Shown one piece after another: positions 1-23,157 of a stretch of 23,727 nt of DNA. The notes beneath the pieces are model-generated. The model ran no database searches, was not told where the DNA came from, and saw only the letters and a list, made by a program, of their open reading frames with translations. Source of the stretch: a virus; the IMG/VR virus record IMGVR_UViG_3300021138_001066, positions 1 to 23,727 of that record; one strand, written 5' to 3'. Numbering within the stretch: position 1 is the stretch's first letter; every line of letters starts with the position of its first letter. The translations under genes and the position numbers were made by a program.

Positions 1-681
1 CATGTCCCTAGAATTACTTTCAATTCTAAAGGTCTTGTGACCAATGCATCTTCTGTTGCAATTACGAGTACCGGAGGCATTACTCAATTAACTGGTGACG
101 TAACTGCTGGACCCGGATCTGGCAGTCAAGTTGCTTCTCTTAATAATGTTTATCCTGGATTCAGTCCAGTTGGTTCTTCAACTGCAATACCTGTTTTGAC
201 TATTGGTAGTGATGGTCGCATTACTTCTTCGACTGTTGCTACTCCTTCAACTGGCTATACACCGCCCAATGCTTGGAGTGTTGAACATAATTCTGTTTCA
301 ATCAGCAATTCACTAAGTCCGGCAACTGGTTTTACAATCGCTGGTCATAGTGGTTATTTAACTTACCTTGTCACTTTTTCTGCAACAATGTATGGGAACT
401 GGGGCGCACCATCAACGCAAGCAAGAGCGCAGTTAAATGTTTACTACTCAGTAAATGGCGGTTTCTATAATGCTTTTGGTAATGGGGTTGGTGTCTTTAT
501 GGCAAGCGGTGGTGATCAAGTTATGGTCGTTTGGCAAAATCTTTTGTACGGACTTGATGGCACTTTACCTGTAAACTTTACAACATCAGATTCCATAGGA
601 TTTGAAGGTCTTGCCGCCATTACAACTGGTTCCGGCACTTCAATCGTCAATGGAGTATTAACAGTTCAAGGAGTTAGGTAA
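1..681 (+). CDS. Tail fibre-like structural protein, 5'-truncated
   Basis: The reading frame is open from base 1, so the gene begins upstream of the window. A GTG at 37 exists but has no Shine-Dalgarno, and residues before it (VPRITFNSKGLV) match the style of tail-fibre repeats. The segment LTGDVTAGPGSGSQVASL is a phrase I recognise from many phage tail-fibre and collar proteins. The C-terminal ~130 residues are Ser/Gly/Thr/aromatic-rich and beta-like, as expected of a trimeric C1q/knob-type receptor-binding tip, but I cannot name the fold. Lysis genes follow directly, which fits a late operon. Role in host recognition is inferred from context. Confidence 0.7.
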   Translation, partial: HVPRITFNSKGLVTNASSVAITSTGGITQLTGDVTAGPGSGSQVASLNNVYPGFSPVGSSTAIPVLTIGSDGRITSSTVATPSTGYTPPNAWSVEHNSVSISNSLSPATGFTIAGHSGYLTYLVTFSATMYGNWGAPSTQARAQLNVYYSVNGGFYNAFGNGVGVFMASGGDQVMVVWQNLLYGLDGTLPVNFTTSDSIGFEGLAAITTGSGTSIVNGVLTVQGVR

Positions 682-900
682 ATGTCAATCAAAATGATTT
701 CAGAGGTAACGTGCGATTCATGTAATGAATTAATTGTTTTCAATGGATCTCAAACAACAGGTTTCATTGTTCTTTTAAATCAAGCAATTCAAGACAAAGA
801 TGGTGTTCCGCAATTTTCACTCTCAGATGCAGTCCCTGTTAACACATCATTCTGCAATGTTGATTGCATGAAACAATACTCACCAGTGGCGACAAAATAA
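682..900 (+). CDS. Small protein with Cys pairs (possible zinc-binding)
   Basis: A 72-residue protein that starts on the base after the upstream stop and is preceded by AAGGAG, so it is translationally linked to the fibre gene. It carries CDSC near residue 12 and CNVDC near residue 58, a spacing that could bind one zinc ion between two knuckles. The middle is polar, with no membrane segment or signal peptide. I do not recognise the family. Its position between a fibre gene and an endolysin suggests a late, possibly virion-associated or fibre-assembly role, but this is only context. Confidence 0.6.
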   Translation: MSIKMISEVTCDSCNELIVFNGSQTTGFIVLLNQAIQDKDGVPQFSLSDAVPVNTSFCNVDCMKQYSPVATK

Positions 901-921
901 TAATCTCGCTACACTTGTCGC

Positions 922-1413
922 ATGACTGACGTTCGACAAAACATAGTTGCATGGGCTAAATGGTGTGCAACGAATCATGGCAAGTTCACTTATTCAGAAG
1001 GACCACAGCGCATGTCGGGAATTGGACAACCCGGAAAATTGCCTGTTACTGCTGATTGTTCTGCCTTTGTGACTCTTTGTTACAACTGGGCTGGTGCGCC
1101 TGATCCAAATGCTCAAAGTTACAATCACACCGGATACACAGGAACCCTTCTTGCTCATGGTCAGAAGATTGCTTTGAAAGATGTTCAGCCCGGCGATGTA
1201 ATTGTCTATGGACCCGGGACAGGCTGGCACACTGCGCTTATTGTTGATGTCTCAGGCGGCAATGCAATGAATCCTTTGACTGTTTCGCATGGTCAGCAAG
1301 GGGATCCTTCCTATGTTCATGTAAATCAAGATGGTCGCTTGCCTCAGACGTATTTGAGATTCAATACAAATGCAATGACAGCAAGCGCAATTCATACACC
1401 GCCAAATCCATAG
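922..1413 (+). CDS. Endolysin, NlpC/P60-type cysteine peptidase
   Basis: This 163-residue protein fits an NlpC/P60 or amidase-like cell-wall hydrolase that would cleave peptide bonds in peptidoglycan. The probable catalytic cysteine is C46 in TADCSAFV, the usual D-C-S-x-F context. The histidine is probably H103 in GWHTALIVD, following the family's PGDVIVY strand. H123 (VSHGQQGDPS) is a candidate third polar residue. There is no signal peptide and no separate wall-binding domain, so it should need a holin, and the next gene encodes a one-helix membrane protein. A later gene in the window encodes a second, circularly permuted member of the wider fold. Confidence 0.8.
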   Translation: MTDVRQNIVAWAKWCATNHGKFTYSEGPQRMSGIGQPGKLPVTADCSAFVTLCYNWAGAPDPNAQSYNHTGYTGTLLAHGQKIALKDVQPGDVIVYGPGTGWHTALIVDVSGGNAMNPLTVSHGQQGDPSYVHVNQDGRLPQTYLRFNTNAMTASAIHTPPNP

Positions 1414-1414
1414 C

Positions 1415-1678
1415 ATGAATGCTTTTAATTTTTGGCTTCAAATTATTGCGACTGTTGGTTTTATTCTTGGAATGCTTTGGACTGTCATTCGATTTGGGCA
1501 TAACATTCTTGCAAAATCAGTCTCCGAGCGACTTGAAGACATCCGCAAAGAGACCAAGCCAAATGGCGGTTCAAGCCTCCGCGATGCAGTTGATCGCATT
1601 GAAAAGAAATTAGACAACGTCAGCATTGATTTTGCTGAACACATTGGTTTTCATAAGGGAATTGGCGACGATCTTTAA
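1415..1678 (+). CDS. Holin-like small membrane protein (DUF2746-like)
   Basis: An 87-residue protein beginning one base after the endolysin stop. Residues ~5-27 form a single hydrophobic helix (LQIIATVGFILGMLWTVI). A basic stretch follows, and then a charged amphipathic region containing SLRDAVDRIEKKLD, which should form a coiled coil. This architecture is that of the DUF2746-type proteins that sit beside lysins in actinophages and are usually called holins. Function as the pore that lets the endolysin reach the wall is inferred from architecture and adjacency. A spanin-like or anchoring role cannot be excluded. Confidence 0.65.
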   Translation: MNAFNFWLQIIATVGFILGMLWTVIRFGHNILAKSVSERLEDIRKETKPNGGSSLRDAVDRIEKKLDNVSIDFAEHIGFHKGIGDDL

Positions 1679-1715
1679 GCCCAAAGATTTCTCCTGCCCG
1701 ACTTGCTGAGAGATC

Positions 1716-1744
1716 TTGAACTGCATAGGATGATCGAGTAAATA
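1716..1744 (+). promoter_or_regulatory. Possible weak promoter before the structural gene at 1814
   Basis: The 135-base gap 1679-1813 contains TTGAAC (1716-1721), 17 bases, then TAAATA (1739-1744). The -35 half is a fair match to TTGACA, but the -10 half is poor. There is no other strong candidate in the gap. Low confidence. Confidence 0.25.
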
Positions 1745-1774
1745 CATTACCGAATTGACCAAAAGGAAATCCCA

Positions 1775-1792
1775 ATGGTACAGTTGAGGTAA
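1775..1792 (+). other. Five-codon mini-ORF with its own Shine-Dalgarno (possible leader peptide)
   Basis: ATG at 1775 reads MVQLR and stops at TAA 1790-1792. It is preceded by AAAAGGAAATC, almost the same ribosome-binding context (AGAAGGAAATC) as the true gene at 1814. It lies 39 bases upstream and in the same frame. It could be a leader peptide or the remnant of a duplicated start region. No other gene is visible in this gap. Confidence 0.3.
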
Positions 1793-1813
1793 GAACTACT
1801 AGAAGGAAATCAA

Positions 1814-2188
1814 ATGGCTCGTTTACCTGTTGCACAAGAGAACGCTGGATTGAACGCAATGTTCGTTCCAACAACGACTTACTACCTTGCTCTTTTCACA
1901 TCTGACCCATCAACAACAGGTGCGTCTGGTGAAGTCACTGGTGGTTCATACGCTCGTCAAGCAATCGCATTTGGATCAGCATCAGCCGGTTCACAGGCTT
2001 CAACGAACGCTCAGAACTTTACTGGTATGCCAGTTGAAGCAGGTGGAGTTCCTTACTTCGGACTTTTCTCAGCATCAACAGCAGGAACATACCTGGGCGG
2101 TGGAACAACAACTGGACTAAGCGGAGCGATCTCTGCCGGCTCAACGATTGCTTTCGCTATCGGCGCAGTTACAACAACTCTGTCATAA
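1814..2188 (+). CDS. Gp80-like phage tail fibre/virion protein
   Basis: A 124-residue small, Ala/Gly/Ser/Thr-rich protein with a good Shine-Dalgarno (AGAAGGA). The N-terminal half, YLALFTSDPSTTGASGEV then GGSYARQAIAFGSAS, matches a family often annotated in actinophages and other phages as a Gp80-like tail-fibre or virion protein (pattern xLALxTxxP, GxEVxGGSYxRxxI). The second half, with PYFGLFSASTAGTYLGGG, matches the rest of that family. It has no charged core and no catalytic motif, so it should be structural. Its neighbours on both sides are lysis and tail proteins. Confidence 0.7.
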   Translation: MARLPVAQENAGLNAMFVPTTTYYLALFTSDPSTTGASGEVTGGSYARQAIAFGSASAGSQASTNAQNFTGMPVEAGGVPYFGLFSASTAGTYLGGGTTTGLSGAISAGSTIAFAIGAVTTTLS

Positions 2189-2191
2189 GTC

Positions 2192-2284
2192 ATGGGCGGC
2201 GAACAGCAGTTCACCGCTTCGGCGGTGGCAACAGTTATCCCACCAACCCCTGACGAGGAAACAACCACCGACTCAGACAACTAG
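2192..2284 (+). CDS. Possible 30-residue ORF, in frame with the gene before it
   Basis: ATG at 2192 opens MGGEQQFTASAVATVIPPTP and runs to a DEETTTDSDN tail, ending TAG 2282-2284. It is in the same frame as the preceding gene and only one codon past its TAA, so stop-codon readthrough would extend the upstream protein by about this much. There is no convincing Shine-Dalgarno of its own. It is more G+C-rich than its surroundings because it contains a perfect hairpin. Whether it is translated is uncertain. Confidence 0.35.
   Translation: MGGEQQFTASAVATVIPPTPDEETTTDSDN
2212..2227 (+). other. RNA hairpin with a cUUCGg tetraloop
   Basis: CACCGC (2212-2217) pairs perfectly with GCGGTG (2222-2227) around the exceptionally stable UUCG loop. 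No T-run follows, so it is not a standard intrinsic terminator. It could set mRNA stability or transcript levels between two structural genes, or protect the 3' end of the upstream message. Confidence 0.55.
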
Positions 2285-2298
2285 AAAAGGACTAAGCA

Positions 2299-3834
2299 AT
2301 GGTTGATGCAATAAAGAACTTTGCTTACTCACTTGTCGCTACTGCTCCTTCACCAGCGACTTCTGGTACGTCACTTGTTGTTACATCAGGAACAGGAACA
2401 GTATTTCCTGCGGCTCCTTTCAATGCGACTATCTGGCCGCCAAGCACTCAACCTTCAACAACAAACGCTGAAATTGTTCGAGTCACAGCAGTTTCAACAG
2501 ACACGCTCACTATAACCAGAGCGCAGTATGGAACATCTGCTCAAGCCATAACTGCCGGGTATCAGATTGCTCAAACGATTGATACCAACTTATTCGGACA
2601 AGTTGCTCCTATTTTGTCTACACAATTAGTCACTGCCAAAATCAAATCATTTACCGTCAATGTTCCTCAATACGCAAACATGCTTTTGTATGCTGGCGGC
2701 AATGCTGGGACAGTTACTATTGGTGGAACTGCGTATAACATTTCAGCAAATCAAACTATTGCAACGGCATCGCTAGTATCTCCTGGATCTCAATCAGTAC
2801 TAGTTTCCGGTCAATTTTCTGCAATTAATCCTGCAACTCAAAGTGGCGGTTGGTCTGTTGGCACTGCTCCTGTTGCACTTACCTACATGCAATTTATAAA
2901 TGGTATTTGGTTGGGTGGTACCAATAGTGGAACCGCAGTCGCTTTTCAAGCAAACTCAATCGATGGCATCAACTGGTATCAAACAACAATTATGCCAACA
3001 TCAGCCGTTTGGGGAATGACAGGTTTCGGCGGTCCGCCGGGTGCTGGTTATTATTTGACAATTCAATACTCAAGCAATGTTTGGGCATACTCGACAAATG
3101 GGACCACTTGGACAACGATAACTGCGGCGTATAGTTACAATTATGGTACCGTTGTTAACGCATACGGCACTGCTACCCCTTGGGTTGTCTTTCCTCAAGG
3201 CGGAACATTAACTCAATACCAATACTGCACAACAACTGCGCCGACATCATGGACGACAGGAACTTTTCCTGCAAGCAGATACTTTCCAGATCATTGCGCC
3301 GCTTACAATCCCAATAGCGGTTACTGGACAGTCAATGTTTTATCAACAACAGGCGCATACTATTCTTCTAATGGAACTTCATGGACGGCATTCAGCATGC
3401 CGTATGCGCCTTCAAATGGACTTTATTTAGCACCCGGAACTGCCGTCAATGGTGGTACTGCTGGTGTCCTTGCCGCCGGTCAAGGTTTTACAAGTACAAG
3501 TTCATACAATTATCAAACAACTGGAACAACATCATGGAGCAGTTCGACTATCCCAGGGACAATCGGTCAAAACTCTGCTTCTTGGGGCAATGGGTATTAT
3601 TGGTTTGGTTTGAATGGTTCATCTGCTTGGACGTCTTATTATTCGCAAAATCTAACTTCATGGACGGCGTTCACAATTAATTCTGCTTCAGGAACCAACT
3701 ATCATTATACCGGGAGTTTCGGCAATGGATCATTTGCTCAAGGCGGTGGTTATGCCGCTTTTCAGTATTCAAGCGCAACCGCAACGCTTCCTGTAACATT
3801 TATTATTACTCAAGGCGCAACAACTTATTATTAA
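2299..3834 (+). CDS. Tail fibre/tip protein with a probable six-bladed beta-propeller
   Basis: A 511-residue protein with no catalytic motif that I can recognise. Residues 1-110 form an Ala/Thr/Ser-rich N-terminal module with TDTLTITRAQYGTSAQAI, a phrase typical of phage tail proteins that attach to the virion. From ~residue 185 to 490 there are six evenly spaced copies of a GxxWxxxxxP-like strand turn: W226, W271, W318, W362, W413 and W455 (spacing 42-51). This is the blade spacing of sialidase/BNR-like or kelch-like propellers. The domain probably binds a surface glycan; there is no evidence that it cleaves one. It is preceded by a good Shine-Dalgarno (AAAAGGA). Confidence 0.65.
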   Translation: MVDAIKNFAYSLVATAPSPATSGTSLVVTSGTGTVFPAAPFNATIWPPSTQPSTTNAEIVRVTAVSTDTLTITRAQYGTSAQAITAGYQIAQTIDTNLFGQVAPILSTQLVTAKIKSFTVNVPQYANMLLYAGGNAGTVTIGGTAYNISANQTIATASLVSPGSQSVLVSGQFSAINPATQSGGWSVGTAPVALTYMQFINGIWLGGTNSGTAVAFQANSIDGINWYQTTIMPTSAVWGMTGFGGPPGAGYYLTIQYSSNVWAYSTNGTTWTTITAAYSYNYGTVVNAYGTATPWVVFPQGGTLTQYQYCTTTAPTSWTTGTFPASRYFPDHCAAYNPNSGYWTVNVLSTTGAYYSSNGTSWTAFSMPYAPSNGLYLAPGTAVNGGTAGVLAAGQGFTSTSSYNYQTTGTTSWSSSTIPGTIGQNSASWGNGYYWFGLNGSSAWTSYYSQNLTSWTAFTINSASGTNYHYTGSFGNGSFAQGGGYAAFQYSSATATLPVTFIITQGATTYY

Positions 3835-3844
3835 GGAGAGACCC

Positions 3845-4246
3845 ATGTCCGACACTTCAACAACACCAGCAGGATTCACGCCACCAGAAGGCGGTATGCA
3901 ATACCCATCAGGCATTCCTGCCGATGCATTTGAAATAACAGATTACAACGGCGACAAGATTTATTGGTCTGTTGATAAAGAATCACCATTTACGATTAAT
4001 GCATGGCACACCGCTTATCCAACGCCAGATGAAACTCCTTTTTGGCATCAGCCACATGACTTTGCTGGCAAGGTTTGGCCAGATGAAGCAACAGCAATAG
4101 CATTTGCGACTCAGTTCCTCAAAGAAAATTGGGAGACTGCTCCTGTTGAACAACCAACTCCTGTACCAAGCATGGATGAAATCAGGGCGGCTCAAATCAT
4201 CTTGGCGGCAACTGGGCACACAGTAATTCCTCCAACTGCTAGTTAA
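3845..4246 (+). CDS. Hypothetical virion-region protein
   Basis: A 133-residue protein starting 10 bases after the propeller gene behind TAAGGAGAG. The N-terminus is Pro/Thr-rich (TTPAGFTPPEGGMQYPSGI). The middle is an aromatic-rich globular stretch (YWSVDKESPFTINAWHTAYP, then TPFWHQPHDFAGKVWPDEAT). The C-terminus is helical with a Pro-rich hinge (PVEQPTPVPSMDEIRAAQII). I do not recognise the family. Its place between two large fibre-like genes suggests a fibre chaperone or small virion protein, but the sequence does not show which. Confidence 0.55.
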   Translation: MSDTSTTPAGFTPPEGGMQYPSGIPADAFEITDYNGDKIYWSVDKESPFTINAWHTAYPTPDETPFWHQPHDFAGKVWPDEATAIAFATQFLKENWETAPVEQPTPVPSMDEIRAAQIILAATGHTVIPPTAS

Positions 4247-4259
4247 GTAAGGAGCCGAG

Positions 4260-7001
4260 ATGTTCGGCGCAAACTTCTTTGCAGGGATTTTCTTTGCAGA
4301 AGCAACTGGGGCTCAAGCAGTTTCAAATGGCAACGGTATTGTTGCGCCTTCATTCTCAGCCAATGCAACAGGTTCTGCATTTCTTCCTGCGACAGCATCA
4401 TTAACTGGCGGCACAACGCTTCTTGGTCAAGAAGTTCAAATCTTCCCTCTTGGTCAAGGTCAGATTCTTGGATCATTTATTGGTGGCGTTCTTGGTGGAT
4501 CAGGCAATGGTGAGTTTGGATCCGCAGTTTTTGGATCAACTTACTTTGCTCAAGATCAAGCAGGTCAGCAACCAGTCAGCATTTACATTCCCGGCTCAGG
4601 ATCATTTGCTGGATCATTCGCCGCAAGCGCAACCGGATCAATAACGCTTCAATACGGAACAGGATCCATAGCAGGATCATTCACAGGATCAGGATCAGCG
4701 ACTTTCTTTGCGCCGGGATCAGGAATACTTTCAGGATCATTCAATTCAAATGGTTCAGGATCAGCATTTGAGCCTGCATCAGGATCATTACTAGCAAGTT
4801 TCAATGGATCAGCATCGGGATCCGCATTTGAACCTGCCAATGGATCTCTGATCTCATCAGTTGCATTGATCGCAACCGGAACTGCATACCTGCCTGCAAT
4901 AGGATCGCTTTCAGGATCATTTTCAACCGCAGGATCAGCAACAACTTTCTTACCAGCAAGCGGATCGCTTTCAGCGAGTTTCAACGGATCAGGAGCAGGA
5001 ACCGCATTCTTGCCAAGTCAAGGATCTGCATCAGCAAGTTTTGATTCAAATGCAACTGGCAATGCATTCGAGCCCGGGACTGCTCAAATTGTTACAACCT
5101 TCAATTCAAATGCCGATGGAAATGCCTTTGAACCGGCTCTAGGATCGCTTAGTTCAGACTTTATGTCTGCTGGCGATGCAACGACCTATTTGCCGGCATC
5201 GGGATCAATAAGCGCATCTGGGACTCTCAATGCGACAGCAGAAGCATTCTTACCCGCAACTGGATCTTTGATAGCAGATGTCGTATCAAATGGTGATGCA
5301 ACAACCTATCTGCCGGCAGAAGCATTCCTAGTCGCATCATTTGAATTGATTGCAGATGGTAATGCCTATGAACCAGCAACTGCCGAAATTGATGGATCAT
5401 TTGATGCGAACGCAGACGGCAATGCATTCGAGCCTGCATCTGCATCTCTTAATGCAGAAGTTGAATTGACAGCAGACGGCAATGCCTATGAGCCTGCAAG
5501 CGCAGAACTTGATGCTTTGTTTGATGCAAATGCAGATGGATCTGCTTTTGAACCTGCAACGGCAGAACTTGATGTTGATTTTGAAGCCAATGCAGATGGC
5601 TACCCATTTGAACCTGCAAGTGCAGAAATTGATGTTTCATTTGATGCAAATGCTGACGGCAATGCATTTGAACCTGCCAGCGCAGAACTTAATTCTGAGT
5701 CACAACTTGATGCGACAGCAGAAGCATTTCTACCTTCATTTGCAGAACTTGATTCTTCATTCGAAACAAACGCAACAGCAGAAGCATTCCTGCCAGCAAA
5801 TGGATCTGTCAATTCAGACTTTGAAAGCAATGGAGATGCAGAAGCATACTTGCCGGCAAATGCAGAACTAGATGCATCATTTGAGTTTGATGCTTATGGC
5901 GAAGCATTTGAACCCAGTACTGCGCAATTAATTTCGACCTTTGACGCTAATGGCGATGCTCTTTGGGTTCCTGCCGCCGGTGGATTTGTATTTGCTAATT
6001 TCGATGCGAATGGTGATGCAACGACTTATCTCCCGGGCATTGCCGAACTTGATTCCGATGTCGAACTTGCTGGCGATGCGCAAGCATTCTTGCCGTCATC
6101 TGGTCAACTAGATTCTTCATTCTCAACTGATGCAATCGCTGAAACATTCTTACCATCAGAAGGATTTGCTGTCGCTTCATTTGAACTTGCTGGCGATGGT
6201 TCAGCCTTTGAGCCTGCTGTTGCAGAACTTATTTCAGAGTTCGAAGCAAATGCCAATGGAGAAGAAATTGATCCAGCATTTGCAGAACTAGATTCATCAT
6301 TTGATTCAAATGGAGATGCAACAACATACTTGCCTTCTGAGGGATACCTTGTTGCTTCATTCGTTCTTGAATCTACCGGCGAAGCATTCTTGCCATCATC
6401 AGGTGAATTAGATGCATCGTTTGAAATAAATGCAGATGGTCAAGCCTTTGAGCCGGGCACTGCGCAATTCATTGCGACATTTGATGCCAATGCAATCGGT
6501 CTTGAAATTGAACCAGCACTTGGTGAAATCAATGCATACTTTGATGCTACTTCTGATGCCACCACTTTCCTACCGGGCGGAGCAACAGTCTCTGCTTCAT
6601 GTTCATTAAGCGCAGTTGGATCTGCCTTCTTGCCGGCTTCAGGATCATTAATTGCAACATCATCTCGATCTGCAACTGGATCCGGCAAACTCTATGGGCA
6701 GGGCTCAGTAACAGGATCATTCAATGCCGATGCAACCGGCGATGCATTTGAAAACTCTCTGGGTGAATTGGCGGCCTCATTTTACGCAAATGCAACCGCT
6801 ACAACATACCTTCCGGGCTTTGCAAATCTTGTTTCGACCTATACCGCCACAGCGCATGGATCTGCCTTCCTAGACGCATCTGGGGCCCTCTCAGGACAAT
6901 TTGCGACAATAGCCAATGGATTTACATTCATACCGCCTCATCCCGGCACAGTTCGAGGCGCAATCTTGGTAGCATCAGTAGTCGGAGACGTTGAGGTATA
7001 G
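4260..7001 (+). CDS. Giant 20-residue-repeat acidic tail protein
   Basis: This is a 913-residue protein. The N-terminus (MFGANFFAGIFFAEATG, later FGSAVFGSTYFAQD) has FG/YF-rich turns like the attachment segments of other tail proteins. From residue ~140 it is 38 consecutive repeats of exactly 20 residues with no insertion or deletion. The consensus is roughly xFxxNAxGxA[FY][EL]PAxAExx, with a near-invariant Pro at position 13. Composition changes along the array: early units are Gly/Ser/Thr-rich, central units Asp/Glu-rich, late units mixed. I find one Lys and two Arg in the whole protein. Fixed length with diverging sequence implies a regular beta-solenoid or stacked beta fold. It is probably a long fibre, whisker or surface adhesin; no enzymatic motif is visible. 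Confidence 0.75.
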   Translation: MFGANFFAGIFFAEATGAQAVSNGNGIVAPSFSANATGSAFLPATASLTGGTTLLGQEVQIFPLGQGQILGSFIGGVLGGSGNGEFGSAVFGSTYFAQDQAGQQPVSIYIPGSGSFAGSFAASATGSITLQYGTGSIAGSFTGSGSATFFAPGSGILSGSFNSNGSGSAFEPASGSLLASFNGSASGSAFEPANGSLISSVALIATGTAYLPAIGSLSGSFSTAGSATTFLPASGSLSASFNGSGAGTAFLPSQGSASASFDSNATGNAFEPGTAQIVTTFNSNADGNAFEPALGSLSSDFMSAGDATTYLPASGSISASGTLNATAEAFLPATGSLIADVVSNGDATTYLPAEAFLVASFELIADGNAYEPATAEIDGSFDANADGNAFEPASASLNAEVELTADGNAYEPASAELDALFDANADGSAFEPATAELDVDFEANADGYPFEPASAEIDVSFDANADGNAFEPASAELNSESQLDATAEAFLPSFAELDSSFETNATAEAFLPANGSVNSDFESNGDAEAYLPANAELDASFEFDAYGEAFEPSTAQLISTFDANGDALWVPAAGGFVFANFDANGDATTYLPGIAELDSDVELAGDAQAFLPSSGQLDSSFSTDAIAETFLPSEGFAVASFELAGDGSAFEPAVAELISEFEANANGEEIDPAFAELDSSFDSNGDATTYLPSEGYLVASFVLESTGEAFLPSSGELDASFEINADGQAFEPGTAQFIATFDANAIGLEIEPALGEINAYFDATSDATTFLPGGATVSASCSLSAVGSAFLPASGSLIATSSRSATGSGKLYGQGSVTGSFNADATGDAFENSLGELAASFYANATATTYLPGFANLVSTYTATAHGSAFLDASGALSGQFATIANGFTFIPPHPGTVRGAILVASVVGDVEV
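4677..6956 (+). repeat. 38 tandem 60-bp units inside the repeat protein gene
   Basis: Codons for the SF/DF/TF-type start of each unit recur every 60 bases from 4677 to 6897 without a phase slip. DNA similarity between units is moderate, with protein pattern kept more strictly than bases, so the array is old and selected rather than freshly expanded. A 63-base degenerate unit precedes it at 4614-4676, and another similar unit lies near 4350. Confidence 0.9.
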
Positions 7002-7003
7002 AC

Positions 7004-7363
7004 ATGAGTTATGCAAATGGAAACAATTACAACTACATCGAAGGGACGACCCTTCGTTTCTATACTCGTGAGCCATTTACTTCGATTGATGGCATCATCG
7101 TCAATCCCGACAATGTTACTTTTACCTATGAAGTGCAAGGGCAAACTCCGGTTACTTACCAATGGGTAAACCCAACAGGAGATCCAACTCAAACAATTCA
7201 AAATCCTGATACCGGTTATTTTTATTGCGACATTCAAACTAGCGATAATGCAGGAACTTGGACTTGGCAATGGGCTTGTTTTCCTTCTTCTGGCGAAGAT
7301 GTGACCGCAACAGAAGTAATCAATGAGGGCGAAGTAATCGTCTCAATTTCAGGAATTAATTAA
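7004..7363 (+). CDS. Small beta-sandwich (Ig-like) virion protein
   Basis: A 119-residue protein following the repeat protein by two bases. Its strand-rich pattern (TTLRFYTREPF, NPDNVTFTYEVQGQ, TGYFYCDIQTSDNAGTWTWQ, EVIVSISGI) is that of a single Ig-like or carbohydrate-binding-like sandwich, a shape common in small phage virion proteins that end with a G-x-W-x-W strand. It is the last gene of the late structural block, and a promoter region follows. Function is not known from sequence. It could decorate the virion or bind host surface polymer. Confidence 0.55.
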   Translation: MSYANGNNYNYIEGTTLRFYTREPFTSIDGIIVNPDNVTFTYEVQGQTPVTYQWVNPTGDPTQTIQNPDTGYFYCDIQTSDNAGTWTWQWACFPSSGEDVTATEVINEGEVIVSISGIN

Positions 7364-9877: not shown

Positions 9878-10326
9878 TGACCGCCAAGACAATCAAAGAG
9901 AGCGCATACTTTTCGGATGCTGTTGCATTGACGATTCAAGATGCCGCCGATCAGTTAAGCAAAGCGATTAAGGATCTGCAAGAAGCAGATGGTCACATGC
10001 TGAGCAAGACCTCTATTGGTCGCCTTGCTCACCAGTATCGTCTTTTCTTAAAGGATCAAGATGTGACAGATCAGACACCTGATCGAGAAGTCATTGATTA
10101 TGTAATGGAAAATCTGATTCACAATGAAGAAATCATTGATGAGGCAATCAAGCGACTTGAGCAAGTGAGAGATCGTTCTCGCAATGCTCGACACTTATTG
10201 CGAAATCATGTTGGCATTGCAGATGCAAAGAAAATGAATGCATTGTTTCAAAGCGGTGAAATCAAAGAATGTGGATTTGATTCATTCTATGTTTGGCAAT
10301 TTGAGAACAAAGGAGCCCGATTCTAA
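9877..10326 (+). CDS. Helical early protein of unknown function
   Basis: The start chosen is ATG 9877, overlapping the upstream TAA (TAATG) and preceded by GGAGG; a frame-compatible TTG at 9838 would lie inside the previous gene. It encodes 149 residues, almost entirely helical and charged, with coiled-coil-like segments (DAADQLSKAIKDLQEAD, then NEEIIDEAIKRLEQVRDRSR). There are no catalytic motifs, and the single Cys is near the C-terminus. I do not recognise it. It is coupled to its neighbours on both sides. Confidence 0.6.
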   Translation: MTAKTIKESAYFSDAVALTIQDAADQLSKAIKDLQEADGHMLSKTSIGRLAHQYRLFLKDQDVTDQTPDREVIDYVMENLIHNEEIIDEAIKRLEQVRDRSRNARHLLRNHVGIADAKKMNALFQSGEIKECGFDSFYVWQFENKGARF

Positions 10327-16097: not shown

Positions 16098-16480
16098 CAA
16101 CGCTATGGGATTTTATTGAAGCAGATGTTGACAAGAATGCATCTCTTAAAGAAAAGTTTGAGGCTTTTCATCGAGCAAATCCAAAAGTGTATGAAGAACT
16201 CAAAAGGCTTGCCATGATCCTCGTTGCGAGAGGTCATAAGAAAATCGGAATTGCAATGTTGTATGAGCAAATGAGATGGCAATGGTTTGAGCAAACGACT
16301 GATGTTTCGGGTTTTAAGTTGAGCAATAATCATCGGGCATACTACGCTCGATTATTAATGCAACAAGAACCTGTACTTGCAGGAGTTTTTACGATTAAGA
16401 GCATCAATCAAGACAGCGCAACCGAGACTCGCATTCAAAGACTCTCGCAAGCGGAAGCCTCAAGCATCGGAGATCGTTGA
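16094..16480 (+). CDS. Conserved phage protein, unknown function
   Basis: 128 residues. The core FEAFHRANPKVYEELKRLAM, ARGHKKIGIAMLYEQMRWQ and LSNNHRAYYARLLMQQEP is a pattern I recognise from very widespread phage hypotheticals (FxxFHxxNPxVYxxL...GIxxLxExxRW...NNxxxPxYAR). It is all-helical. No catalytic motif is established for the family. The stop overlaps the TTG start of the next gene (TTGA). Confidence 0.65.
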   Translation: MTTLWDFIEADVDKNASLKEKFEAFHRANPKVYEELKRLAMILVARGHKKIGIAMLYEQMRWQWFEQTTDVSGFKLSNNHRAYYARLLMQQEPVLAGVFTIKSINQDSATETRIQRLSQAEASSIGDR

Positions 16481-16875
16481 AGAAACCGCTTATCATTCTG
16501 ACCGTTGCATTGACCATCGCTATGACAATGCCAGCGCAAGCAAATACAAAAAATGTTGCACGAATTAATAAAGTCCCGCAAAGCAAATCAATTAGGTATG
16601 TGCCGCCAGAACCGATTATTGCGCCAGCAGTAATGGAACAATGGGCAAAAGTCGCTCAATGCGAAACTGGAAGCAACTGGCATACAAGAGGATCAATTTA
16701 TTCAGGAGGATTAGGGATCCTTGAAATAAATTGGATGGCTTATGGTGGTTGGATCTTCGGCGCAGAGTATTCAGCAACGCCAGCAGAACAGGTTTTCATA
16801 GCAATTAAGATTCAACGATTGAATGGTTTAGGAAATTATGTGCCCGATCAAAATGATTGCGGACATGGATGGTAG
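16477..16875 (+). CDS. Secreted Rpf-like transglycosylase
   Basis: The start is TTG 16477 (a TTGA junction equivalent to the ATGA overlaps elsewhere), giving 132 residues. Residues 1-22 are a signal peptide: two Lys, a hydrophobic core, and cleavage after AQA. Residues 55-132 match the resuscitation-promoting-factor/transglycosylase-like domain: WAKVAQCETGSNWHTRG with the probable catalytic E63 beside C62, then GGLGILEINWMAYGG, AEQVFIAIKIQ and a final C128 expected to form the domain disulphide with C62. The enzyme would cut peptidoglycan glycan strands outside the membrane. An early-operon location with its own signal peptide separates it from the lysis genes. Confidence 0.78.
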   Translation: MKKPLIILTVALTIAMTMPAQANTKNVARINKVPQSKSIRYVPPEPIIAPAVMEQWAKVAQCETGSNWHTRGSIYSGGLGILEINWMAYGGWIFGAEYSATPAEQVFIAIKIQRLNGLGNYVPDQNDCGHGW

Positions 16876-18905: not shown

Positions 18906-19469
18906 ATGAAGCCAGTTAGAGTTCCGTTAAATAATCTTGCTCATTTAGCAGGCAATCCTCGAATGGGAGATGTTGATGCGATTGCAGAATCCTATTCTCG
19001 CTTTGGGCAAGTCAAACCAATCGTTGCTCGAAGAACAGGCGATGAGGTTGGAATCGTCATTGATGGTAATCATCAACTTGATGCCGCCAAGCAACTTGGT
19101 TGGGATTCATTAGAAGTTATCTTTGTTGACATGGATGAAGCGACTGCAAAAGCGTATTCTTTAGCGGCCAATCGAACTTCGCAATTAGGAACATACGATC
19201 CTGAATTATTGCTTGCAATGATTAGCGACATTGATTTGGCTGGCACAGGATACATCGAGCAAGACGTGACTGATCTTTTGCATCAATTAACTCCACCCGA
19301 TCTTGATGCATTAGCGAATGAAATAGGCAACACTCAAGATGTCCCTGATGAATACTCGCTTCTTCTTAAAGTAACTCGAGCAACATTGAATCGTTGGAAA
19401 TCAGCATTCATTGATCCAAGCCTCAGCGATGATGAAAAATTGAATCGATTGCTCGATCAGGTCACATGA
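18906..19469 (+). CDS. ParB/Srx-like nuclease-domain protein
   Basis: 187 residues with an AGGGGAGG Shine-Dalgarno. Residues 1-100 carry a ParB-type N-terminal domain: VPLNNLAHLAGNPRMG, IAESYSRFGQVKPIVARR, the box IDGNHQLDAAKQLGWDSLEV, and AYSLAANRTSQLGTYD. The C-terminal half (ATLNRWKSAFIDPSL) is helical and contains a short HTH-like stretch. In deazaguanine systems ParB-like proteins are often encoded beside dpdA and may guide or regulate the transglycosylase; a CTPase or nuclease role is also possible. It overlaps dpdA by ATGA, which supports a joint function. Confidence 0.8.
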   Translation: MKPVRVPLNNLAHLAGNPRMGDVDAIAESYSRFGQVKPIVARRTGDEVGIVIDGNHQLDAAKQLGWDSLEVIFVDMDEATAKAYSLAANRTSQLGTYDPELLLAMISDIDLAGTGYIEQDVTDLLHQLTPPDLDALANEIGNTQDVPDEYSLLLKVTRATLNRWKSAFIDPSLSDDEKLNRLLDQVT

Positions 19470-20392
19470 GTTCTTCCTCAGCCCGGCAAGCAATTCTTCT
19501 TGCAGATACAACGCTGACAATACCTAAACGATTCAATGCGCTTCTCTCATTTCATACGGTGTCAGAGCCAGAAGAAGTAATTGCATTATCAAAACTCGGG
19601 TATCGATTTGTTGCAGATTCCGGGGCATACTCTGTCGCAAGCATTGGCGCAGTTATTGACATTGATGAATACGCAGAGTGGTGTCATGTTGTTAAAAATC
19701 ATGTTTGCTGGATGGCATCGCTTGATGTTATTGGCGATGCAGATGGTTCATTTGAAAACTTTAAATACTTGCGCAACAAAGGTCTTGACATAATTCCAAC
19801 AATTCATTATCCAGCCTCGCCGACATTAATTAGCAAATACATTGCATTTGATTCAAGTATTGATTTCTTTGGACTTGGCGGATCCGTTGGAGTTCGAGAC
19901 GCAAAGAATCTACTTCGATGGTTTGTCGAAGTATTCCGATACGTCAGAGATCATCATCCTCAAGTTAGATTTCATGGTTGGGGATGCTCTGGCACTCGGC
20001 TTGTATCTCAAGTTCCTTTCTATTCTGTTGATTCATCAGCATTTAAAAGCGGTCAACGGTGGGGCAGTTTTGTTCTTCACGATGATCGTTCTCTTAAACG
20101 ATGGCAGTATCAAGCAAATGGAAAAGATGCTTATTTGCTCAAAGATGAACTAAAGAGACTCTATGATCTCAACCCATCTCAGATTTCGACTTCAACACCT
20201 GAAAATTGGGGGCTCGTTATTTATTTCGCCGCCAGAAGTTCTGTCAATCTGCAAAAGTTTTTGCGCAAACGCTTTGGTGAAATTAGCGCACCTTCATTTG
20301 GATCCGATGGGCAAAATGGCATCAATGTTCATAACGTTCTGACACCTCAAGATCTTCGACTTATTGCGCCGCTATTGAAGGAGATGACATGA
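19466..20392 (+). CDS. dpdA: DpdA-like DNA guanine transglycosylase
   Basis: 308 residues of the TGT/DpdA TIM-barrel superfamily. The first catalytic motif is D51-SGAYSV (TGT enzymes use D-SGG). The second is SLDVIG with D87, followed by IPTIHYPASP, FFGLGGSVG, VRFHGWGCSG and SVDSSAFKSGQ with D189 as probable nucleophile. I see no C-terminal Cys/His zinc cluster of tRNA-acting TGTs, which supports the DNA-acting branch. The expected reaction exchanges guanine in DNA for preQ0. It is translationally locked to parB upstream and queC downstream. Confidence 0.8.
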   Translation: MSSSSARQAILLADTTLTIPKRFNALLSFHTVSEPEEVIALSKLGYRFVADSGAYSVASIGAVIDIDEYAEWCHVVKNHVCWMASLDVIGDADGSFENFKYLRNKGLDIIPTIHYPASPTLISKYIAFDSSIDFFGLGGSVGVRDAKNLLRWFVEVFRYVRDHHPQVRFHGWGCSGTRLVSQVPFYSVDSSAFKSGQRWGSFVLHDDRSLKRWQYQANGKDAYLLKDELKRLYDLNPSQISTSTPENWGLVIYFAARSSVNLQKFLRKRFGEISAPSFGSDGQNGINVHNVLTPQDLRLIAPLLKEMT

Positions 20393-21114
20393 AAGATAAA
20401 GCAGTTGCGATTGCATCAGGGGGAATGGATTCAACGGTTCTTCTGTATGATTTAAATGAGAGAGGATTTGAGACTCTTGTTTTGTCATTTGATTACGGAC
20501 AACGGCATAAAAAAGAACTTGATTTTATTGCAATAACTTGCAAGAAATTAGGATTTGAACATCGAATCATTGATCTGACTGGCATTACGGAATTGATTAC
20601 TTCTTCAGCATTGACTTTTGGCAAAGAAGTTCCTGATGGTCACTTTGCAGATTTAACGATGCGACAAACAGTAGTGCCGAACCGCAATGCAATAATGCTG
20701 TCAATCGCCGCAGGAGCCGCAATGAACATTGGATCGCATTTTGTTGCAACAGCCGTTCATGGTGGCGATCATTTTATTTACCCAGATTGCAGACCTGCTT
20801 TTGTTGATGCGCTTAGTATGGCGATGTCTTTGGCCGCCGATGATCTCTTTACTGAAGGCGCATTTGAAGGAATCTATTCCCCATTCATAACGACTGACAA
20901 GGCTTACATTGCCGCATTAGGTCATGCAATGCATGTTGATTGGAATGATACTTGGAGTTGCTATAAAGGTGGCGAGATTCATTGTGGCAGATGTGGCACT
21001 TGTGTTGAGCGCAGAGAAGCCTTTATGCTGTCAGGTGTAGAGGATCCAACTCTTTACGAAGATTACGATTTCGCATGGGAAGCGATTGAAAAACATAAAA
21101 GGGGAGAACAATGA
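20389..21114 (+). CDS. queC: 7-cyano-7-deazaguanine (preQ0) synthase
   Basis: 241 residues, a full-length QueC. The ATP-pyrophosphatase loop is ASGGMDSTVLLYDL (S10-S15), the substrate/ATP region has VVPNRNAIMLSIAAG, and zinc ligands C191, C199, C202 and C205 (CYKGGEIHCGRCGTC) are complete. It converts 7-carboxy-7-deazaguanine plus ammonia and ATP to preQ0. There is no fused amidotransferase and no QueF or ArcS in the window, so preQ0 itself is the likely base handed to DpdA. Confidence 0.94.
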   Translation: MKDKAVAIASGGMDSTVLLYDLNERGFETLVLSFDYGQRHKKELDFIAITCKKLGFEHRIIDLTGITELITSSALTFGKEVPDGHFADLTMRQTVVPNRNAIMLSIAAGAAMNIGSHFVATAVHGGDHFIYPDCRPAFVDALSMAMSLAADDLFTEGAFEGIYSPFITTDKAYIAALGHAMHVDWNDTWSCYKGGEIHCGRCGTCVERREAFMLSGVEDPTLYEDYDFAWEAIEKHKRGEQ

Positions 21115-21557
21115 GAATGTCCTTAACTAAAGAAGTCGAGTTTGATACAGGGCATCGCGTCCCAGATCATGCCAGTAAATGCTTCAATCCGCATGGGCAT
21201 CGCTATCGTGTCCGAGCAACATGCGCTGGTGAATTAATTAATGAAGATGGAGCCGCCGACAATGGCATGCTTGTTGATTTTTCAGACCTAAAGGCTTGGA
21301 TGACTGAATACGTTCACGATGTTTATGATCACGCTTTTGTCGTTTATGAAAATGATGACATTATGCGCTCATCATTGGAGCATGGATCGCCGGATTGGAA
21401 GATCGTCATCGTTCCTTTCATCCCGACTGCTGAAAACATGGCTCAAGACATCTTTGATCGGCTTGCTCCTATCATTGAAAGTCATTGGAGAAATAACATC
21501 AGGCTTGTCAAAATTGAAGTCTGGGAAACTCCGACATCGAAAGCGATTGTCGAATGA
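21111..21557 (+). CDS. queD: 6-carboxytetrahydropterin synthase
   Basis: 148 residues, of normal length for the family. Zinc ligands H15, H28 and H30 (FDTGHRV, NPHGHRY) and the nucleophile C24 (SKCFNPHGH) are present. D73-H74 (VYDHAF) and E108 (PTAENM) with E139 (VWETPTS) complete the active site. It makes 6-carboxy-tetrahydropterin from dihydroneopterin triphosphate, the second step toward preQ0. The start is ATG 21111 (ATGA overlap with queC) or ATG 21117. Confidence 0.93.
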   Translation: MRMSLTKEVEFDTGHRVPDHASKCFNPHGHRYRVRATCAGELINEDGAADNGMLVDFSDLKAWMTEYVHDVYDHAFVVYENDDIMRSSLEHGSPDWKIVIVPFIPTAENMAQDIFDRLAPIIESHWRNNIRLVKIEVWETPTSKAIVE

Positions 21558-22264
21558 GTTACGAAGTCGCAATTTCAGCCCATCTTGCTTCAAGTTTGAG
21601 AGTCTCAGAGATCTTTGGACCGACACTTCAAGGCGAGGGCGCATCTGTCGGTAAACAATGTTGGTTTATTCGACTAAGTGGATGCAATCTCGAATGCTCA
21701 TGGTGTGACACTCCCTACACATGGGACTGGTCGGGCAAAAATGGGAAAAAGTTTGACAAGAAACAAGAAGAAAAAGTCATGCAGATCGCCAATGTGGTTG
21801 ACGAAGTCCGCTTTGCCAATCATGTTGTCATAACCGGTGGCGAGCCATTAGTTCAAAGCAGAGCATTGATTCGATTACTCAACGCACTCGAACTTGTCGG
21901 GATCAGCGCAGAAGTTGAGACTAATGGGACTCGCCCCTACCCTATTGGTGCGCCACTTGGAACACGCTGGAACATTTCTCCAAAGTTATTAAGTTCTGGC
22001 AATGGCAATGGGATCCGCCCAAAGGCTCTCGCTTCATACCCGCTCAATTCAATTTTCAAGTTTGTCATAACAGATCCAAGCGACATTGATGAGATCCTTG
22101 ATTTGAAATTGCCTCGCAAGCAGACGTATTTGATGCCAGAGGGTCGAACGCTTGAAGAAATTAATGACAAAGCGAAATGGGTTGCAGAATTAGCAATTCA
22201 GAATGGCATGAACTTCTCGTATCGTCTTCACATTCTTTTGTGGGGATCCGAAAGAGGTCACTAA
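21554..22264 (+). CDS. queE: 7-carboxy-7-deazaguanine synthase (radical SAM)
   Basis: 236 residues. The opening signature SEIFGPTLQGEGASVG is typical of QueE. C44, C48 and C51 (GCNLECSWCDTPYTWDW) are the radical-SAM iron-sulphur ligands. VVITGGEPLVQ is the SAM-binding strand. The rest of the barrel carries AEVETNGTRPYP, WNISPKL and FKFVITD. The enzyme rearranges carboxy-tetrahydropterin to 7-carboxy-7-deazaguanine. ATGA overlap with queD and 2-base spacing to the next gene. Confidence 0.94.
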   Translation: MSYEVAISAHLASSLRVSEIFGPTLQGEGASVGKQCWFIRLSGCNLECSWCDTPYTWDWSGKNGKKFDKKQEEKVMQIANVVDEVRFANHVVITGGEPLVQSRALIRLLNALELVGISAEVETNGTRPYPIGAPLGTRWNISPKLLSSGNGNGIRPKALASYPLNSIFKFVITDPSDIDEILDLKLPRKQTYLMPEGRTLEEINDKAKWVAELAIQNGMNFSYRLHILLWGSERGH

Positions 22265-22266
22265 TC

Positions 22267-23157
22267 ATGAAACGCCCTGAAATGCCGTTATACGCCGATT
22301 TCGAGCAGTTAAAGCAGTTATCAAGGGAATTAGCCGGCAGATGGGATACTCAGCCAATTTCCGGCGTTTGGGGTGTTCCAAGAGGCGGCACTTATGTTGC
22401 GATCATGGTCGCTCAGATCCTCGGAGTCCCATTGCTCGATGAATACAACGGCGGTTGCTTAGTTGTTGATGATCTTGTTGACTCTGGCAGGACAGCATCT
22501 GAATACCATCAGTTTGATGCTTTGTTTCGTAAATCGCATTCGCCATCGCATCTTGCTCCTCATGCCAAAGTCATTGATAACTGGATCGTATTCCCTTGGG
22601 AAGCAAATGAAAGCGGTCCCGAAGAAGCAGTTGTCAGGATTCTTGAATACATCGGTGAAGATCCAAAGCGAGAAGGCTTGATCGAAACTCCCAAGCGAGT
22701 AATCAAAGCATTTAAAGAACTTACTGATGGGTATGAGAAAATAGATACCGAGATTTTGACGACCACTTTTGATGAAGCCTGCGATGAGATGGTTGTTGTC
22801 TCTGGCATCGAGTTCAGTTCAATGTGCGAACATCACATGCTTCCATTTACTGGGCATGCAACAGTTGGTTACATACCAAATGGATCCATTGTCGGGCTAT
22901 CAAAATTGGCTCGATTAGTTGAAATGTATGCTCGCCGCCTTCAAGTTCAAGAACGCATGACTGAACAAATTGCCCATTCAATTCAAGACATCCTCAAACC
23001 ATTGGGTTGTGGGGTGGTTATTACCTCTCATCATTCTTGTATGGGCATGAGAGGGATTAGAAAAGCAAACGCAAAGATGACGACCTCATCGCTTCTTGGT
23101 GCAATGCGAGATGAGCCAGAAACTAGAGCCGAGTTCCTAAGCCATCACAAAGACTAA
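22267..23157 (+). CDS. folE: Phosphoribosyltransferase-GTP cyclohydrolase I fusion
   Basis: ATG 22267, two bases after queE, gives 296 residues; a start at 22177 lies inside queE. Residues ~1-112 are a purine phosphoribosyltransferase: GVWGVPRGGTYVA, then the phosphoribosyl-pyrophosphate loop LVVDDLVDSGRTA (D68-D69) and DNWIVFPWE, the last a xanthine/guanine-type ending. Residues ~116-296 are FolE: zinc ligands C187 and H190 (SSMCEHHMLPF) and C258 (HHSCMGMRGI), with GLSKLARLV and RLQVQERMT. FolE makes dihydroneopterin triphosphate from GTP. The fusion suggests guanine salvage coupled to its use. Joined in one frame, with no stop between. Confidence 0.88.
   Translation: MKRPEMPLYADFEQLKQLSRELAGRWDTQPISGVWGVPRGGTYVAIMVAQILGVPLLDEYNGGCLVVDDLVDSGRTASEYHQFDALFRKSHSPSHLAPHAKVIDNWIVFPWEANESGPEEAVVRILEYIGEDPKREGLIETPKRVIKAFKELTDGYEKIDTEILTTTFDEACDEMVVVSGIEFSSMCEHHMLPFTGHATVGYIPNGSIVGLSKLARLVEMYARRLQVQERMTEQIAHSIQDILKPLGCGVVITSHHSCMGMRGIRKANAKMTTSSLLGAMRDEPETRAEFLSHHKD

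Follow-up and report, generated by a model that had tools for sequence, protein, structure and literature searches.

Which role could a phage protein play that is built from 39 gapless repeats of 20 residues, holds next to no Lys or Arg and turns strongly acidic in its middle? The question is raised by a gene in the window, i.e. the whole stretch of 23,727 nucleotides that was analysed (IMG/VR virus record IMGVR_UViG_3300021138_001066). The window covers part of the genome of a tailed phage, and the gene (Table 1) is an ORF on the + strand with an ATG start and a product of 913 aa. The earlier note on this DNA, made from the sequence, had counted one Lys and two Arg in 913 residues, which is borne out by the translation (K1, R2, D50, E59; 109 acidic residues in total). 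The calculated pI is 4.05. The poor visibility to tryptic proteomics that had been foreseen agrees with the four tryptic peptides computed (803, 7, 89 and 14 residues).

Read in phase, the translation contains 39 gapless 20-mers (residues 118-897), preceded by an irregular N-terminal part (residues 1-117) that lies outside the array. A profile scan recovers an unbroken run of 37 units with weaker units flanking it, so that the 38 repeats proposed originally are correct to within one. The identity at lag 20 amounts to 0.379, versus 0.099 +/- 0.010 in shuffled sequences (n=1000, maximum 0.133), while lags 19 and 21 yield only 0.05 and 0.04. The strict phase of 60 bp or 20 residues is therefore kept in the array, as had been claimed. 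Within the acidic zone, the most recently duplicated stretch displays a nucleotide identity of 70-80% between units.

The charge is distributed differently from what had been described. The central units are indeed acidic. Instead of a gradient, there is a zoning into neutral, acidic (residues ~338-777) and again neutral parts; the acids per 20 aa number ~1.0 (residues 118-357), 4.1 (358-777) and 0.8 (778-897). The zones may, as the earlier note supposed, correspond to parts with different contacts. The sole Lys and one of the two Arg are found in the last of these zones (units 34-39).

Table 1. Repeat gene, its parts and its neighbours in the window (feature, position, strand, basis or remark)
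913-aa acidic, Lys/Arg-poor repeat protein, whole gene	4260..7001	+	ORF and translation, syntenic homologues
Conserved N-terminal motif MFGANFFAGIFFAEATG (relatives MLGGNYIGQAYLAQGYA)	4260..4310	+	family alignment
Irregular N-terminal region, 1-2 degenerate units and inserted segment ending SIYIPG	4311..4610	+	
Units 1-11, Gly/Ser-rich, 0-2 acids per unit	4611..5270	+	
Units 12-33, acidic, 2-6 acids per unit, located on outward columns	5271..6590	+	
Units 34-39, mostly neutral	6591..6950	+	mostly 0-1 acids, one unit with 4
C-terminal motif VRGAILVASVVGDVEV, HPGT before it	6951..6998	+	family alignment
Most recently duplicated array part	5341..5761	+	Tandem Repeats Finder, 60/120-bp period, 71-74% matches
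Gp80-like fibre protein	1814..2188	+	Pfam PF23140; phrog_240 head protein
Upstream tail fibre gene	2299..3834	+	N-terminal part matches phrog_8469 tail fiber
Downstream 119-aa gene	7004..7363	+	adjoins repeat gene in close relatives; 61% identical in L004

Among the large genes of the fibre region, the repeat gene comes last; before it stand, in this order, the genes for tail-tip proteins, endolysin, Gp80-like protein and tail fibre. The product of the small gene that follows looks beta-rich (judged by eye only). A second contig from the same population (L001/G001) is 99.9% identical to window 1-6556 and carries terminase, portal/head-morphogenesis, tail (phrog_290) and tape-measure genes. All seven differences between the two are situated outside the repeat gene. 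This contig stops at its position 10297 (window 6556), within the array; the assembly may misjudge the number of units. The gene content from the first tail fibre to the repeat gene varies among related phages (window 2299-4246, L094 706-3183, L096 2341-5907), as expected of a host-recognition region. The window also encodes a WhiB protein (Pfam E 2e-15), and freshwater surveys have used WhiB to recognise actinobacterial phages (PMC6802176). Together with the relatives described below, this suggests that the phage comes from a lake.

Elsewhere in the window, a cluster at 18906-23157 encodes ParB-like, TGT/DpdA-like (phrog_7068), QueC, QueD (PTPS) and QueE (radical SAM) proteins and a GTP cyclohydrolase I with a phosphoribosyltransferase-like N-terminal part; it likely serves the 7-deazaguanine modification of the phage DNA. 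Among the replication genes, 16477-16875 encodes a transglycosylase-like protein (Pfam PF06737) whose N-terminus resembles a signal sequence.

The near-absence of Lys and Arg turned out to be real and at the same time not special. The Lys/Arg-poor fibre-type genes occupy window 1-7363 and contain 0.3-3.8% of these residues, versus 8-21% in the replication and metabolism genes. In the relatives described below, the repeats hold 0-0.38 Lys+Arg per unit. The scarcity is common to all fibre-type genes of the window and is therefore not peculiar to the repeat gene; the idea that it was special was dropped after this comparison with the neighbouring genes. Lys/Arg poverty is a property of the fibre module. 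As a consequence, the repeat protein would escape standard tryptic virion proteomics, and other fibres of these phages would probably be missed as well.

Sequence searches with the repeat protein alone returned only the same phage. Relatives were found in IMG/VR contigs by using the conserved MRE11-like gene downstream as query, and then the first relatives. The search for the 20-residue unit in other phages, which had been put forward as a check, could in this way be answered with a set of syntenic proteins: L012 (546 aa), L013 (465), L016 (488), L018 (564), L020 (350), L026 (308), L094 (593), L096 (688), L098 (566) and the distant L004 (331). In these phages the repeat gene lies directly upstream of a gene of the 7004-7363 type, after which the MRE11-like gene follows in most cases. 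The relatives span 308-688 aa, the window protein being the longest. Nine of them carry the N-terminal motif (MLG.NY.G..YL..) and 11-30 copies of the 20-residue unit, and most display the C-terminal motif (PG.V.G..). The window protein contains both (MFGANFFAGIFFAEATG and HPGTVRGAILVASVVGDVEV), its C-terminal VRGAILVASVVGDVEV being a short form of the family tail PGSVTGDFKTASVRG... The insert ending in SIYIPG recurs in L094 and in L092 and L093, which are near copies of L094, and was seen in no other relative.

When the window protein was compared to the relatives by BLASTP, 114-423 bits were obtained in the forward direction, 80-166 with reversed and 47-133 with column-permuted sequences, the smallest margin being that of L004 (114 vs 80.5). 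By these scores, its homology to the relatives exceeds the reversed and column-permuted controls, narrowly so for L004, and the repeat proteins form, as judged from their sequences, an undescribed family found in related phages. A scan of genome contigs with one relative (L018) revealed no cellular relative. In the still farther phages L021, L022, L024 and L025 the same slot is taken by unrelated-looking, non-repetitive genes.

The family also bears on the claim that the unit length is under structural constraint, which it supports. The 20-residue spacing is found in all nine closer relatives, and the length is fixed in ten proteins that together hold about 220 units, the single exception within an array being a 22-residue step in L020. 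L094 additionally carries an inserted segment near the N-terminus, apart from this spacing. L004 has a divergent N-terminus and irregular units of 17-20 residues (by eye), and the 20-residue rule therefore holds within a clade only. Between orthologues, the gaps in the array mostly comprise 20, 40, 60 or 240 residues, i.e. whole units, with small gaps mainly at the ends. Purifying selection is evident from dN/dS values of 0.20-0.29 over divergent orthologue pairs. The window protein resembles its ten syntenic relatives in gene position, N-terminal motif, beta unit and Lys/Arg poverty. It differs in having 39 units (vs 11-30) and 2.64 acids per unit (vs 0.15-0.63), and is the only strongly acidic member among the relatives found.

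What the unit may look like can be read from its columns. The window units have the consensus DASFEANADGTAFLPASGSL, and the acids per column (10,0,8,0,19,0,5,0,17,0,9,2,0,16,1,0,3,0,13,0) alternate in a strand-like manner and change sides at the F-[LE]-P turn. When the polar columns are defined from the relatives alone (1, 3, 5, 7, 9, 11, 17 and 19), 84 of the 103 acids in the window array fall on them (p = 7e-18; rotation null 41 +/- 6). Two core swaps are observed, from F4/A6 to x4/L6 and from F13/P15 to A13/Y15, which in the relatives reach OR 0.017 (p 3e-16) and OR 0.026 (p 6e-13). In the first of them bulk is traded between the two columns, F4 going with a small residue at 6 and L6 with a small residue at 4. 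The units are related by descent and not independent, and all p values at the unit level therefore overstate the significance; the column patterns do recur in several relatives. Exchanges between core positions i and i+2 fit beta-strands with a packed interior. The alternation of acids and the compensation in the core thus point to amphipathic beta-strands whose core is packed, and not to disorder. Disorder throughout, which the earlier note had named as the outcome that would speak against its fibre, is at odds with the strict in/out beta alternation of the sequence.

Structure prediction agrees with beta structure at low confidence. For eight acidic window units (23-row alignment), AF2 returned an all-beta model with a pLDDT of only 39.8, and this model (pLDDT 40) was left out of the fold search. 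The full relative L026, modelled with the family alignment, forms 24 strands, which recur in pairs every 20 residues, one pair per unit (pLDDT about 60 in the repeats, 51.6 overall). In Foldseek, its best PDB match is not significant (E 0.13), and the best match in the viral library (E 0.007) consists of uncharacterised proteins of uncultured Caudovirales. After realignment to the PDB candidates, the nearest solved folds are parallel beta-helices: the Ca2+-dependent beta-helical antifreeze protein 3p4g (Z 19.0, rmsd 3.6, 269 aligned) and curli CsgA (Z 21.9 but rmsd 9.2). AF2 is also known to over-predict beta-solenoids for repeat sequences (PMC11795689). Given this bias, the low AF2 confidence and the non-significant Foldseek scores, the fold assignment is weak. 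A solenoid had been suggested from the start; a beta-solenoid with two strands per unit is plausible from the model of the relative, at low confidence.

Searches of Pfam, PHROGs and PDB sequences with the protein, 8-unit windows and full-length relatives yielded only chance-level or low-complexity matches, none of which leads to a homologue with a known function. The match to PF05069 Phage_tail_S (E 0.0014, below its cut-off) covers a stretch of repeats and was dropped, and DUF2807 matches were dropped as chance-level. The unit consensus lacks the GGxGxDxUx nonapeptides of RTX calcium beta-rolls (no RTX Pfam match), the units lack the CsgA repeat S-x5-Q-x-G-x-G-N-x-A-x3-Q (by eye; no Curlin Pfam match), and collagen-like Gly-x-y triplets are absent from the translation. 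Among the papers accessible to the analysis, none pertinent to repeats of 20 residues in the virions of phages came up. Membership of any named fold family is not established.

How could the acidic zone be accommodated? In columns 5, 9 and 14, acids follow one another without a gap over 6-7 successive window units. In a stacked solenoid, such columns would bring carboxylates to about 5 A from each other, so that counter-ions or protonation would be needed. Furthermore, 11 of the 39 window units fit a D/E/N-x-N-x-D/N loop with an adjoining G, a candidate for an EF-hand-like DxDxDG calcium loop (D-x-[DN]-x-D-G and an acidic ligand further on), and E14 is present only together with G10 (p 2.5e-5; units related by descent). 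NANGDA loops are already carried by L096. In the charge-hydropathy analysis, the acidic zone is located at the border between folded and disordered (margin 0.02), and the remaining zones plot clearly on the side of folded proteins (0.29-0.35). It is from the stacked acid columns, the DxNxDG-like loop in some units and this borderline position that the cation idea derives. A stabilisation of the acidic zone by cations or low pH is plausible on these grounds.

The locked unit length, the amphipathic alternation, the core compensation, the gain and loss of whole units, the purifying selection, the synteny with tail genes and the charge zoning characterise a protein that is genuine, selected and structurally constrained, and that is extreme in length and acidity within its family. 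Most probably, the tailed phage carries it on its virion as a fibre or spacer with 39 stacked 20-residue beta units. Each unit would comprise two short strands, connected by a loop at about columns 5-8 and by a turn with Pro/Gly at about columns 15-17. The core would be lined by small and aromatic residues (columns 2, 4, 6, 8, 10, 12, 13, 18 and 20), and the polar residues would be exposed to solvent (columns 1, 3, 5, 7, 9, 11, 14, 17 and 19). The units would stack coaxially, as a solenoid or a trimer, and it is proposed that their number therefore sets the length of the fibre, which may act as adhesin stalk or spacer. The conserved N- and C-terminal segments would anchor it to the virion or cap it, the N-terminal motif being a possible attachment segment. 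In the window phage, the outward Ser/Thr/Asn of the middle ~22 units would have been replaced by Asp/Glu, and the resulting acidic, Lys/Arg-free surface may bind cations and would require them, or low pH, for stability.

The same sequence pattern would be produced by a trimeric fibre. In a homotrimeric shaft, of the triple beta-spiral or the interleaved beta-helix type, no chain has a core of its own; it arises where the extended beta segments of three chains meet, as in the fibres of adenovirus and of many phages. The 20-residue unit is kept, and the rise per unit would be several times that of a monomeric solenoid. The position among fibre genes, the long in/out alternation from column 17 round to column 12, broken once in each unit by a Pro/Gly kink, and the poor confidence of the AF2 monomer despite the clear beta pattern all agree with such a shaft. 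The AF2 monomer model itself favours a closed two-strand solenoid turn, and the repeats of published triple beta-spirals, at about 15 residues, are shorter. A shaft of this kind is considered unlikely, though worth keeping in view. Low AF2 confidence, the borderline charge-hydropathy of the acidic zone and the gain and loss of units could also point to a largely disordered, low-complexity acidic part of the tail that serves as linker or entropic bristle, where the 20-residue phase would be a relic of tandem duplication. This is highly improbable in light of the strict acid alternation, the compensating core swaps, the fixed unit length and the purifying selection. An equally slim chance is given to a decoration of the head or neck (whisker or head fibre) instead of a tail-tip fibre. 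The nearby Gp80-like protein, assigned to a head protein group, speaks for it; the location of the repeat gene speaks against it, as it lies behind the tape measure, tail-tip, endolysin and fibre genes, where the tail module has its distal end for host recognition.

A bolder extension of the fibre or spacer reading is regarded as rather improbable. It holds that the family represents a new structural class of phage fibre, in which up to 39 beta units of 20 residues are stacked and where one lineage has converted outward Ser/Thr ladders into Asp/Glu ladders, so that folding and stiffness of the mid-fibre would be switched by divalent cations or pH. If true, such ladders would make a fibre that responds to water chemistry. 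More generally, repeat fibres whose length is set by the number of units are useful models for how phages tune the reach of their adhesins. Across related phages, the same slot is occupied by members of this family with anything from 11 to 39 units; the in/out code is clear, and a natural charge series, from neutral to strongly acidic, is offered on one scaffold. There is no usable match among Pfam, PHROGs and PDB sequences, and such proteins will therefore be annotated as hypothetical.

The repeat protein would work like known repeat fibres. A look-alike architecture is present in cultured phages: the Microcystis phages Mel-JY03 and Mae-JY02 and the Pseudanabaena phage Pan4 possess a Gly_rich_2 protein with 20-residue repeats (lag-20 identity 0.48), which in Mel-JY03 (L102 4759-6648) is annotated as glycerophosphodiester phosphodiesterase. 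It shares the Gly/Ser/Thr-rich alternating pattern and the small downstream gene with the window protein, and differs by Arg within the units and another N-terminal domain. As a cultured homologue, Mel-JY03 was rejected: its reversed sequence scores as well (hhalign 11.6 vs 12.0; blastp 94 vs 84 bits), and homology is therefore not claimed. The two-strand beta-solenoids CsgA and 3p4g have a repeat length of about 19-23 residues. Both align with the low-confidence model of L026 at 6% sequence identity, and no curli or RTX motif is seen (by eye) in the window units. Tandem BACON-domain repeats of varying copy number occur in tail proteins of crAss-like phages, where a role in host binding was proposed (PMC6949934). 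They are likewise tandem, tail-associated and of changing copy number, and differ in being whole domains of a known family instead of 20-residue units. The triple beta-spiral shafts of adenovirus and phages are built from short beta repeats with a Pro/Gly turn, and their length follows the number of repeats, each of which is shorter than the unit of the window protein.
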